The notes beneath the pieces are model-generated. The model ran no database searches and was not told the origin of the DNA. It worked only from the letters and a program-made list of their open reading frames with translations. DNA of 64,000 bases, from positions 31,426,726 through 31,490,725 of the forward strand of contig OX243825.1 of NCBI GenBank assembly GCA_945859605.1, in the 5' to 3' direction. Every line of letters begins with the position of its first letter. Within the stretch, counting starts at the first letter, position 1. The position numbers were made by a program, and so were the translations under genes. Positions 32,258-52,536 of the stretch are shown piece after piece. Source of the stretch: Lumbricus rubellus (taxonomy: Eukaryota > Annelida > Clitellata > Crassiclitellata > Lumbricidae).

Positions 32258-32313
32258 TTATCCTCCTTCTACAGGATGTAAACAAGGATAGGCACCTGAT
32301 TCTCCGTGCATAC
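32258..32313 (-). CDS. P1 exon 3 (C-terminal, sixth cysteine)
   Basis: Acceptor tract ctctcgttttcatccag on the minus strand, then GT completing a Cys codon. Fifteen-odd residues including AYPC and a TAA stop follow. The TAAACAATGTA around the stop is conserved in P2. Confidence 0.65.
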
Positions 32314-34741
32314 CTGGATGAAAACGAGAGATGCATAGTGATAAACGCTGAACAATACCACACCTAAATAATTATAGTCATCTTCCTCCTCGCCTCCTCC
32401 TCCTCTTCCTCCTCCTCCTCCTTCTCATCGTCGTCGTCATCATCGTCGTTATCATCGTCGTCCTCCTCCTCCTCATAATCATCGTCGTCGTCGTCATTGT
32501 CGAATTCGAAATTGTCATCATCATCGTCATCGACATCATCATCATCACCATCACCGTCGTCACATTAATGTCTTTTTTATTCTCATCTTCACAACCCTCA
32601 GGCTACCAAGCTTTTTTGTAACACTGACTACCGGGGATTTTGGGTTTGGTTTGAGATATCATAACTTGTAATAGGTCTACACCAATGGATTCAGCATTCA
32701 TTTCTGCACAAAATGATTTATTTAGGTTTAAAATATATGAATGCACCTCGAAATTATGATATTTTCCATGAGTACCCATAGATTCCACAAAACGTGTACT
32801 TTCGCATAAGTAAAATGTTGGATTCTGTGTGTGTGTGTAGAACATGATTTATGTAGGCCTACACAAGTATAGTTTATATATAATAATGTAACATGTTCAA
32901 CTATATAGACTAGTTATAAGTCCTTTTTAGGTACAATCAAAAGGAAAAAAACATGAATAGGCCTATCTATCGACAACCAACATGAAACAACGAAATTATG
33001 CCATTGTCGGTGTGCGTCGTAAACAAATCAGCATTTTCACTCATTTTAATTTATTTTGAGCACTTCCGGTCATCAAAAGACAAATGAATTGGTGTCGAAA
33101 AATAGCACTAAATGCCTTCTATAGAATAATTTATTTCTCTTAAAAAATAAATCATGAATATGTTATAATAGACAAAATATGTAAATTTTACGAAAAATAA
33201 AATACCTTTATATATATTTTAAATATATATTTTAATTTATTTTGAGCACTTCAGGTTGTCAAACGACAACTCAGTGACCAACACAATGTAGCCCCACATT
33301 CACTCTATAGAATGGTATAATTTGTTTCTCTCAATATTAAGTGACTACAACGATATAGGCGAAAATCTAAGTGGGCGGTCCACCCCCGGTACCTCGGGTA
33401 TAATGGGTATAACTTTTGAACGGTGTGAGGTATCATCTCACATTGCACCTCAAAATGTGTGCCATTGAACCCCCTACAGCTACCTAAAAGGTCATTTTTT
33501 TCCATACGGAACAAATTTGAAATCGATAAAACCTATGGGGGAAACAACACCCCCCCCCCCCTTGGTAGCCCGAGCGATAGTCTTTCTTGCAGACTCTGTC
33601 ATAAAAAGCCATGTTCGTGGCAGATGTAATCAATCACTCACAACGAAATTTGCATGACTTATTATTTGCGCAAGTCCCGAGACATTTGTTGTAATCATCT
33701 TGGCATTTTTTCTTACCCGTCTGCTGCCGTTTTGTAAGATGTGTGGACACATCGCGCACTACAATGACACAGAAAGTAGATTATAATATAAAACAGTTGA
33801 ACTTGAAATCGTCATTCAGTACGGTTCCACGACAACTGGTTCACAGACAACTGGTTCAACGACAACTGGTTCACGGACAACTCGTCCACCGACAACTCGT
33901 CCACTGAAATAGAAGCCGGATTATTGAGAAAACGCTTGGAAAATAGAAGCTGGATGAAGGTTTTTACAGGTGAAATAGAAGCTGGATTTATGAAAAACCG
34001 CTTAAGAAATGGAAGATGAATTTATTTTATTTTCTATCTGAAATATAAGCTGGATGCATGTTGAGACACATGATGAAAATCATAAATTCAGCTTCCATTT
34101 AAGAAAGAAAACCATTAGACTTTTTCTCATAAATCCAGCTCCTATTTCGTAAATAAAGAACCTGCATCCAGCTTCTATTGCCCAAGCGTTTTCTCAATAA
34201 TCCGGCTTCTATTTCGGTGAACCAGCTGTCGGTGAACCAGTTGTCCGTGGACGAGTTGTCGTTGGACGAGTTGTCGGTGAACGAGTTGTCGTGACACCAT
34301 TCAGTACATTGCGTTGGGGAACAGCAGCTGTCGGGGGTCGGTTCTGAAAGCTCACACTTCTATTGGAAGCGTTGAGCCTTTCTGATTAAGGATATGCTCG
34401 CGGTCCCAACACAGCAGGCTGTAAATCAACTGGCAAATTTTGAGGTGAGTAGTCTACACGCTGACCGGGAGAAAAGTCGACTTGTCGAAATTCACGTGAA
34501 TAGGCTACCTACCCTGCTTTTTACCCCCGTATACCCTGGTTTCTGGAGGTGAGTATAATACGCCGTATACCCGCGTAGGCTATAGCCTTGATTTTAGCCC
34601 TGCAACACAGTTACAAAAACTTGTCAAGTTCTTTGAATGGAAATCATCGACAAGAAATGGCGGCTCATATATTGCGGTGTTCACTGTCTTACCATTGACA
34701 ACCAGAAGAAGGCAGAAGACGAGTAACAGGGTTGTCTTCAT
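32258..34741 (-). CDS. Small secreted six-cysteine peptide gene, copy P1
   Basis: Three coding exons: 34,741-34,693 (signal peptide, MKTTLLLVFCLLLVVN), 33,758-33,642 (Cys-rich) and 32,313-32,258 (C-terminal, stop TAA). Donors are GTAAGA and GTGAGT. Acceptors are ttgtag and a pyrimidine-rich tract ending catccag. All junctions are phase 1, and the codon across the last junction (T plus GT) becomes Cys. The predicted precursor is about 73 residues; the mature part has spacing C-x6-C-x3-C-x5-C-x3-C-x9-C, suggesting three disulphides in an extracellular peptide. A TTTCAG immediately before ATG implies an upstream non-coding exon. Intron 1 contains foldback copy 3, intron 2 a TTAA element and a CAT repeat. 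Function unknown: a defence peptide, hormone or other secreted factor are all possible. Exons were inferred by comparison with copy P2. Confidence 0.7.
32376..32575. repeat. CTC/CAT-rich microsatellite
   Basis: Mixed TCC, CGT and CAT trinucleotides, paralogous in position to the CAT array at 49,580-50,130. Confidence 0.85.
32595..33574 (-). mobile_element. TTAA-type element, copy G1 (ends eroded)
   Basis: About 980 bp beginning ccctcaggctaccaagc and ending cttggtagcccgag, the reverse of copies at 57,826-58,819 and 59,509-60,492. The TTAA flanks are no longer present. It contains internal near-repeats (ctatagaat near ttatttctctt). Sits in intron 2 of peptide gene P1. Confidence 0.75.
33642..33758 (-). 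CDS. P1 exon 2 (Cys-rich)
   Basis: 117 nt, acceptor cattgtag, donor GTGAGT, phase 1 at both ends. Encodes a basic stretch (KRQQTGKKK) and five of the pattern positions up to CKFR, the fifth Cys being completed by exon 3. Confidence 0.7.
33823..34298. mobile_element. Foldback element type A, copy 3
   Basis: 476 bp with perfect 9-bp flanks attcagtac (33814-33822, 34299-34307). Five 15-mers per arm, some with GGTTCA variants. The paralogous gene P2 has a single attcagtac at 50,415-50,423 with no insert, giving an empty site. Lies in intron 1 of P1. Confidence 0.95.
34693..34741 (-). CDS. P1 exon 1 (signal peptide)
   Basis: 49 nt, preceded by atatttcag and followed by the donor GTAAGA. Hydrophobic leader LLLVFCLLLVV. 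Confidence 0.75.
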
Positions 34742-52500: not shown

Positions 52501-52536
52501 AAGAAGGCAGAAGACGAGCAACAGGAATGTCTTCAT
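49481..52536 (-). CDS. Small secreted six-cysteine peptide gene, copy P2
   Basis: Coding exons 52,536-52,488 (signal peptide, MKTFLLLVFCLLLVVH), 50,361-50,233 (Cys-rich) and 49,521-49,481 (C-terminal, TAA stop). Donors GTAAGA and GTGAGT, acceptors ttgtag and gttttcgttcag, all introns phase 1. As in P1, the final junction makes a Cys codon. The predicted precursor is about 72 residues; spacing C-x6-C-x3-C-x11-C-x3-C-x6-C. Before the first Cys comes an acidic/basic stretch (RAEQERR). Without splicing, exon 2 reads on to a longer frame ending 50,162, an alternative I consider less likely because P1 stops at once there. Intron 1 holds a 1.3-kb TIR element, intron 2 the CAT arrays. Secreted; function not inferable from sequence. 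Confidence 0.7.
49580..50135. repeat. (CAT)n arrays with CGTCGC-type interruptions
   Basis: Three higher-order units, each a CAT run followed by cttcatcgYc and gccgtcgc blocks ending gtaccgtcatcat. Poly-His and poly-Ser frames are artefacts. Lies in intron 2 of P2. Confidence 0.95.
50233..50361 (-). CDS. P2 exon 2 (Cys-rich)
   Basis: 129 nt, phase 1 at both ends, acceptor ctcgttgtag, donor GTGAGT. Encodes RRCNEAYKVCNEGC and NCRSY. Confidence 0.75.
50785..51060 (-). mobile_element. TTAA-type element fragment, copy G4
   Basis: TTAA then ccctcaggctaccaag, followed by sequence matching 58,560-58,810 in reverse. Truncated where a TATG microsatellite (about 51,060-51,225) begins. Confidence 0.75.
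51060..51225. repeat. (TATG)n microsatellite, imperfect
   Basis: TATG and CATG units with interruptions. Confidence 0.9.
52488..52536 (-). CDS. P2 exon 1 (signal peptide)
   Basis: 49 nt, preceded by ggtttcag and followed by the donor GTAAGA. Near-identical to P1 exon 1. 51,760-52,485 is intron with no recognised element beyond short AT-rich sequence. Confidence 0.75.

Follow-up and report, generated by a model that had tools for sequence, protein, structure and literature searches.

The window analyzed here, a 64,000-nucleotide (nt) stretch of the Lumbricus rubellus genome (contig OX243825.1, positions 31,426,726 to 31,490,725), contains two minus-strand loci, designated genes A and B, that are each assembled from a signal-peptide exon, a Cys-rich exon and a terminal micro-exon. 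We consider it very probable that both are real genes, and the best reading of their sequence is that they are intact duplicates belonging to a lineage-specific family of small peptides that are predicted to be secreted. Their coding exons, and the conserved sequence 3' of each stop codon, lie at the following window positions.

34693-34741, minus strand: gene A signal-peptide exon, 49 nt, MKTTLLLVFCLLLVVN, ending in phase 1 (exact match; 44 of 49 nt identical to gene B)
33642-33758, minus strand: gene A Cys-rich exon, 117 nt, phase 1-1, encoding Cys1 to Cys4 and the first base of Cys5
32258-32313, minus strand: gene A terminal micro-exon, 56 nt, encoding the remainder of Cys5, Cys6 and the stop codon TAA
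32065-32257, minus strand: gene A, conserved sequence 3' of the stop codon (3' untranslated region [UTR])
52488-52536, minus strand: gene B signal-peptide exon, 49 nt, MKTFLLLVFCLLLVVH (exact match)
50233-50361, minus strand: gene B Cys-rich exon, 129 nt, phase 1-1
49481-49521, minus strand: gene B terminal micro-exon, 41 nt, encoding a C terminus ending in CLGAGR, followed by the stop codon
49290-49480, minus strand: gene B, conserved sequence 3' of the stop codon (3' UTR)

Locating every exon by exact match reproduced the description in the original prediction of two minus-strand loci with these exons, junctions and phases. The introns of both genes are GT-AG, with the donors GTAAGA and GTGAGT and pyrimidine-rich acceptors, and both introns that separate coding exons are in phase 1. 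As had also been claimed, the Cys5 codon is split T/GT at the last junction in A and B alike, the stop context ATAA/ACAATGTA is identical between them, and the Cys residues are spaced 6, 3, 5, 3 and 9 residues apart in A and 6, 3, 11, 3 and 6 residues apart in B (C-x6-C-x3-C-x5/11-C-x3-C-x9/6-C). Corresponding exons differ in length by 0, 12 and 15 nt, the nonzero differences being multiples of three. The predicted translations, MKTTLLLVFCLLLVVNVRDVSTHLTKRQQTGKKKCQDDYNKCLGTCANNKSCKFRCMHGESGAYPCLHPVEGG for A and MKTFLLLVFCLLLVVHVRSWWNSNDRAEQERRCNEAYKVCNEGCATVKDRDTRQNCRSYCEKSRQGCLGAGR for B, are precursors of 72 to 73 residues with a short stretch ahead of Cys1. Polyadenylation signals were unconvincing: in gene A, ATTAAA occurs 453 nt and AATAAA 1132 nt past the stop codon, and no signal was found for gene B within the 1.2 kb searched past its stop codon.

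The duplicated unit extends over about 36.2 to 32.1 kb for A and 54.6 to 49.3 kb for B. Six blocks along it, running from the putative promoter to the 3' UTR, are 76 to 86% identical, with a divergence (K) of 0.16 to 0.29; these blocks were picked from BLAST alignments, and five are noncoding while the sixth includes the signal exon (49 of its 112 nt). When the noncoding flanks adjacent to the exons were pooled, 350 of 424 nt were identical (83%; K, 0.20), with the qualification that flanks were sampled beside exons, where the copies align, and that flank identity ranged from 73% to 83% depending on the aligner and the stretch. The signal exon is 90% identical, with a nonsynonymous divergence (dN) of 0.09 and a synonymous divergence (dS) of 0.19. 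The mature coding part is identical at only 71 of 150 nt (47%; dN, 0.83; dS, 1.31), yet all six Cys residues are retained. These values come from 50 aligned mature codons, out of 57 in A and 56 in B, since gapped codons were excluded; removal of the six Cys codons gave a dN of 1.12 and a dS of 1.17.

This result does not depend on where the gaps were placed, because in gap-free blocks anchored on Cys1 to Cys3 and Cys4 to Cys5, 18 of the 36 nt in non-Cys codons are identical (P = 2e-5 versus the pooled flanks, Fisher's test). The interior of exon 2 is identical at 48 of 110 nt compared to 74 of 102 nt in its flanks (P = 3e-5), and the interior of exon 3 is identical at 19 of 36 nt compared to 209 of 266 nt (P = 0.0016). 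The strongest evidence for actual translation of the micro-exon is the valley at exon 3. The raised divergence between the copies is restricted to the exons, with Cys residues, frame and splice sites kept. The claim that these are short six-Cys genes of one family, coding for predicted secreted peptides and ending in a micro-exon, draws support also from a comparison that the original prediction had not proposed: both Cys exons form divergence valleys between conserved intron and UTR flanks.

One observation weighs against the family interpretation. The original prediction had named equal synonymous and nonsynonymous divergence across the Cys-rich exons as a result that would refute it, and the values obtained come near to equality, most closely when the Cys codons are removed; the bootstrap interval of the synonymous-minus-nonsynonymous difference (pS-pN) spans zero with and without them. 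Since dN and dS are 4 to 7 times the flank K, and since the frame, splice sites, stop codon and six Cys residues are kept, we did not take this near-equality as refuting the interpretation. The dN and dS of A versus B do not, however, by themselves prove that the mature part has been under either purifying or positive selection. Because both are raised, selection on point changes alone is insufficient, as it would raise dN only. Either the exons may have been swapped with older paralogues, or the flanks may have been homogenized, or many small replacements may have accumulated; two copies cannot discriminate among these.

The likeness between the mature parts was compared to that of residue-shuffled sequences. 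The score of the post-signal A/B peptide alignment was equalled by 17 of 3000 shuffled pairs, and the six aligned Cys columns of the post-signal parts were equalled by 7 of 3000. A pattern for the first five Cys residues, run over the six frames of the window, gave seven matches, namely, A, B and five that lie in or run into tetranucleotide repeats. Further weak matches to the exon-3 profile in the window were mostly simple repeats. A 28-nt blastn match to the terminal exon of A (60708-60735, minus strand; expectation value [E], 0.002) and a nearby Cx6Cx3C stretch (60594-60629) were both taken as chance: no matching acceptor was seen, and neither a signal exon nor an upstream module was picked up there by the profiles.

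The profiles of each exon plus its flanks, run over the whole window, also delineated an upstream block with a TATA-like box and a GT donor that is common to A, B and a third locus, copy C. The modules of A and B are as follows.

36026-36193, minus strand: gene A upstream module, with TATA-like CTATATATAC at 36130-36121 and the probable end of a 5' UTR exon at about 36033 (CACG/gtaact)
54367-54553, minus strand: gene B upstream module, copy 1, with TATA-like CCATAATACC at 54477-54468 and the probable end of a 5' UTR exon at about 54374 (CAAG/gtgact)
53861-54059, minus strand: gene B upstream module, copy 2, with the donor CACG/gtaaac retained and ATGs in the leader stretch
53310-53854, minus strand: gene B upstream module, copy 3, split into two parts (53854-53749 and 53418-53310) that are separated by other sequence, the donor GT changed to AT

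In A, B and C alike, the ATG directly follows a splice acceptor AG. Given that the ATG adjoins this acceptor and that the shared block carries a TATA-like box and a GT donor, all three likely have an untranslated first exon. In gene A, CACG/GTAACT lies 88 nt beyond the TATA-like CTATATATAC, and there are counterparts in B and C. The putative leader lacks an ATG in A (75 nt) and in B copy 1 (93 nt). Of the three modules, gene B most likely starts at copy 1, because copy 2 has ATGs (three within the stretch examined) and copy 3 is split, with its donor now AT. Judged from their sequence, the upstream modules may serve as promoters. Just upstream of gene B, at 54863-56051 on the plus strand, are a reverse transcriptase open reading frame (ORF) (RVT_1; E, 1.6e-23) and then a DUF6451 ORF (E, 6.5e-9).

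Copy C lies on the plus strand and is convergent with gene A. Two of its parts could be identified.

26901-27092, plus strand: copy C upstream module, with TATA-like CTATAATTACC at 26970-26980 and a donor candidate AATG/gtaat at 27081/27082 (profile E, 1.6e-19)
27850-27898, plus strand: copy C signal exon, 49 nt, MKTFLIAVMCLLVVGY, with the acceptor TTTCAG before the ATG and the donor GTGAGG (profile E, 7e-8)

The signal-exon profile match spans 27812-27907, 0.7 kb past the upstream module and in the expected order. The exon is identical at 33 of 49 nt to A and at 33 of 49 nt to B, compared to 44 of 107 and 48 of 100 nt, respectively, in its flanks (P = 0.003 versus A and P = 0.035 versus B, Fisher's test). 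Since it is more identical than its own flanks, the copy C signal exon has probably been under constraint. Over 27900-32250 on the plus strand, where the remaining exons would be expected, the exon-2 profile gave no match, the best exon-3 profile match (E, 2.6e-5) lay within a GTAT repeat, and the Cys pattern matched only that repeat. A scan of the same interval for acceptor, donor and phase yielded 35 candidates with at least three Cys residues, and the 25 that were listed all lay in or ran into the GTAT repeat. Interspersed and simple repeats fill the stretch between copy C and gene A, in which two ORFs look transposon-like and have no Pfam match. Copy C, a third and more divergent copy, is probably truncated, or its mature part has become unrecognizable.

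The window also contains a dispersed element, at 33823-34291, 28790-29255 and 38-477, whose two ends each carry nearby arrays of 15-nt units (TCCACCGACAACTCG type) that are oppositely oriented; intron 1 of gene A harbors one copy, and another lies in the stretch that separates copy C from gene A.

The predicted peptides carry dibasic sites, KR ahead of QQTGKKKC in A and RR ahead of Cys1 in B, and their C termini are GG in A and GR in B. After the dibasic sites, predicted peptides of 46 (A) and 40 (B) residues remain, with a net charge of +3 and a pI of 8.6. The peptides are predicted to be secreted, cleaved and amidated and to form disulfides. AlphaFold2 modeled B as a confident helical hairpin, with helices at residues 2-44 and 50-68 and block predicted local distance difference test (pLDDT) scores of 94 to 96 over residues 31-60. 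The model of A was a weak hairpin with a mean pLDDT of 70.5 and a second helix at residues 50-58. Fold-search matches all had E values above 1 among the best 50 of 98. On these models, a helical hairpin is the likely fold. Given that Cys1 to Cys3 lie on one helix and Cys4 to Cys6 on the other in the predicted B structure, nested C1-C6, C2-C5 and C3-C4 bridges would staple the hairpin.

Known families were searched in several collections. No Pfam family scored above cut-off for A or B. For A, the closest was AtDEF-like (plant defensin-like, PF25052), with an E value of 0.00059 and 20.5 bits against a cut-off of 25 over residues 4-60; for B, DUF4094 (E, 0.0085) was followed by AtDEF-like (E, 0.075; 13.8 bits against 25). 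The CXC motif is a feature of Cys-stabilized alpha-beta defensin folds. Membership in AtDEF-like was rejected, as the matches fall below the cut-off, the smallest Cys spacing in A and B is x3, so that no CXC is present, and the match spans the signal peptide. The best NCBIfam score was 11.6 bits against a cut-off of 49, with no family above it. PDB sequences gave no significant match to A or B (best E, 0.15 to 0.84, and 0.22 with a two-sequence profile); plant defensins 2n2r and 1ayj were weak matches for A (E, 0.28 and 0.69), and a resemblance of B to a Frizzled Cys-rich segment (CRSYCEKSRQGC versus CRSLCERARQGC; E, 0.2) was taken as chance. A set of 5.8 billion proteins yielded no homologue candidate for A or B by shared words, although short spliced peptides may be missing from it. 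A control query with the transposon-like window ORF at 39223-40323 returned 712 matches, and insect, snail, leech and crab names among the 120 matches listed indicate that animal proteins are present in the set. Within Pfam, NCBIfam, PDB and the protein set, the earlier statement that the family is not recognized was therefore borne out. Literature text searches by Cys spacing returned mostly plant LBD proteins and chemical formulas among the matches listed, those by signal sequence returned no match, and papers linking echinoderms or sea urchins with hairpins showed no such family in the titles and abstract openings of the matches listed.

The whole reading to which we assign a rough probability of 0.5 is that A and B encode fast-diverging, secreted, disulfide-stapled helical-hairpin peptides that are most likely defense effectors; the host-defense role itself, directed against microbes and exerted outside the cell, we favor tentatively, at slightly less than even odds. 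Transcription would start at a TATA-type promoter 0.9 to 1.9 kb before the ATG and run through an untranslated first exon into the 49-nt signal exon, the phase 1-1 Cys exon and the micro-exon that carries Cys6. Cleavage by signal peptidase, and probably by a convertase acting at dibasic sites (KR in A and RR in B), would free a cationic peptide of ~40 to 46 residues, in which the three nested bridges would staple an antiparallel helical hairpin, a scaffold that may tolerate nearly free change at non-Cys residues. The promoter, secretion, processing, bridge pairing and function in this scheme are all suggested by sequence features.

Several alternatives bear on what the exons are. It is possible, if somewhat unlikely, that the flanks and signal exon were homogenized by gene conversion or that the Cys exons were swapped from older paralogues, such that the exons are older rather than fast-evolving. 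Such a history would suit the raised synonymous sites (dS of 1.31 versus a flank K of 0.20), which point selection alone leaves unexplained, but the six blocks are fairly even in divergence, they contain no near-identical conversion patch, and the divergence valleys coincide with two separate exons. The micro-exon might instead go unused, with the Cys exon of B continuing into intron 2. The intron-2 donor is also GT, so a retained intron 2 still yields Cys5, an ambiguity that the original prediction did not raise, and in B (50162-50361, minus strand) the frame reads to a sixth Cys before the stop codon, ending in CEYLHLPQNGFCHSINDADDKKR. In A, however, the retained intron gives a stop after one further residue, and the conservation of the exon-3 acceptor region and stop context around a diverged exon-3 interior also argues against this option, which we regard as very unlikely. 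Least likely of all is that the loci are decayed copies, homologous DNA that has lost function. Copy C, with no visible Cys exons and with repeats crowding the stretch from its signal exon to gene A, looks like what decay would leave, but A and B retain their frames, splice sites, stop codon and six Cys residues despite near-saturation of the other codons.

Two further alternatives accept the genes and differ over the product. An offensive or antipredator toxin in venom or mucus that targets ion channels, comparable to the helical-hairpin B toxins known from nemerteans, would match the hairpin predicted for B, and a conserved signal with a diverging mature part also fits toxin families; a marine animal toxin has been described whose helical hairpin is crosslinked by disulfides, and B-I among the B toxins has six Cys residues (PMC6410017). 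Since B-II to B-IV carry eight (PMC6410017) and no such toxin appeared among PDB sequence matches at E values of ≤10, we consider this product unlikely. A signaling peptide (a neuropeptide, hormone or reproductive signal) is more unlikely still. The dibasic sites and the C-terminal GR of B and GG of A do resemble processing and amidation signals, and six-Cys putative neuropeptides of unknown family are described from echinoderms (PMC4772807). Arnp15a and Arnp15b, the two whose length is given there, nonetheless run to 111 residues (PMC4772807), compared to 72 to 73 residues here, and their spacer is acidic and longer than the short stretch ahead of Cys1 in A and B; moreover, the near-total divergence of non-Cys mature positions between neighboring copies is unlike a ligand kept by its receptor.

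Genes whose coding exons measure only 41 to 129 nt and whose last intron interrupts a Cys codon would easily escape gene finders and homology searches. If expressed, A and B would represent a peptide family with no recognized relative in the databases searched and a simple helical-hairpin Cys code. Further copies that are invisible to protein searches can be sought by what is conserved in the upstream module, in the signal exon and in the intron sequence beside the exons, as copy C, found in this way, illustrates.

Elsewhere in the window, three long arrays of C2H2 zinc fingers, built from units of 84 nt, lie on the minus strand (2151-3872, 14018-15761 and 18876-19713), and Pfam confirmed fingers in the single ORF tested (18424-19833). 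Inverted copies of one ORF, at 38636-39397 (minus strand) and 39223-40326 (plus strand), share a long peptide stretch and have no Pfam match; their protein matches include animal proteins, some named DUF4371-domain-containing, and the region 38636-40326 is probably a transposon with inverted arms.

Coding exons that are several-fold more diverged than the adjacent introns are known mainly from toxin and defense peptides: exon divergence above that of introns is similar in snake venom phospholipases, and cone-snail toxins have hypervariable mature parts. In myticin-C, introns are reported to vary more within the species than exons do, although exon 2 comes near the intron level (PMC3164099), a pattern that differs from the excess of exon over flank divergence in A and B. 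The CRP-I genes of Mytilus form a family with a first exon that is 5' UTR only, a conserved signal, a dibasic site and six conserved Cys residues, and their cationic, very variable mature part is reportedly under positive selection (PMC10138031); A and B resemble it in the probable UTR-only exon, conserved signal, dibasic site, six Cys residues and variable cationic mature part. They differ from it in that CRP-I, as described, encodes a knottin array of the form C-C-CC-C-C in its final exon and has a propeptide that is conserved, whereas in A and B the stretch from signal to Cys1 is not conserved. The CRP-I array C(X3-6)C(X1-7)CC(X3-4)C(X3-5)C was tried on A and B and rejected, as neither has an adjacent Cys pair, and encoding of the Cys-rich mature peptide by the final exon was rejected likewise, as their array is split between exons at Cys5.

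Sea urchin strongylocins are described as secreted, Cys-rich peptides of 5.6 to 5.8 kDa with three disulfides and a prepro region, and EeStrongylocin 2 as having a 22-residue signal, a 16-residue prosequence and a mature form that starts with Trp (PMC4805251); compared by description only, their likeness to A and B is that of secreted Cys-rich peptides. The plant defensin-like AtDEF-like family is likewise secreted and Cys-rich with a signal, as predicted for A and B, which lack its CXC. Among hairpins, the Cerebratulus B neurotoxins (B-IV; PDB 1VIB) have no sequence match to A or B, which share six Cys residues with B-I and differ from the eight of B-II to B-IV; 1VIB was not among the fold matches listed, which covered at least 50 of 98.

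The alpha-hairpinin motif, defined in Table 1 of PMC11591084 as CX3C-X(4-20)-CX3C with at most two extra Cys residues outside and no CC beside the core, fits both A and B. In plant alpha-hairpinins such as the six-Cys Nigellin-1.1 (PDB 2NB2), the outer Cys residues are spaced at x3 (PMC11591084), compared to x6 and x6/x9 in A and B, which are moreover spliced, animal-type genes with no significant sequence match to the plant peptides (best hairpinin match E, 1.6, with a two-sequence profile of A and B). As a conjecture that we ourselves rate as doubtful, an animal lineage may have arrived on its own at a scaffold like that of the alpha-hairpinins, stapled by three nested disulfides, and put it to use in a family of diversifying effectors. 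Sequence replacement would then be limited to the two Cys exons and would affect silent and replacement sites together, as though stretches of exon had been exchanged or hypermutated with the introns, UTRs and signal exon left in place.

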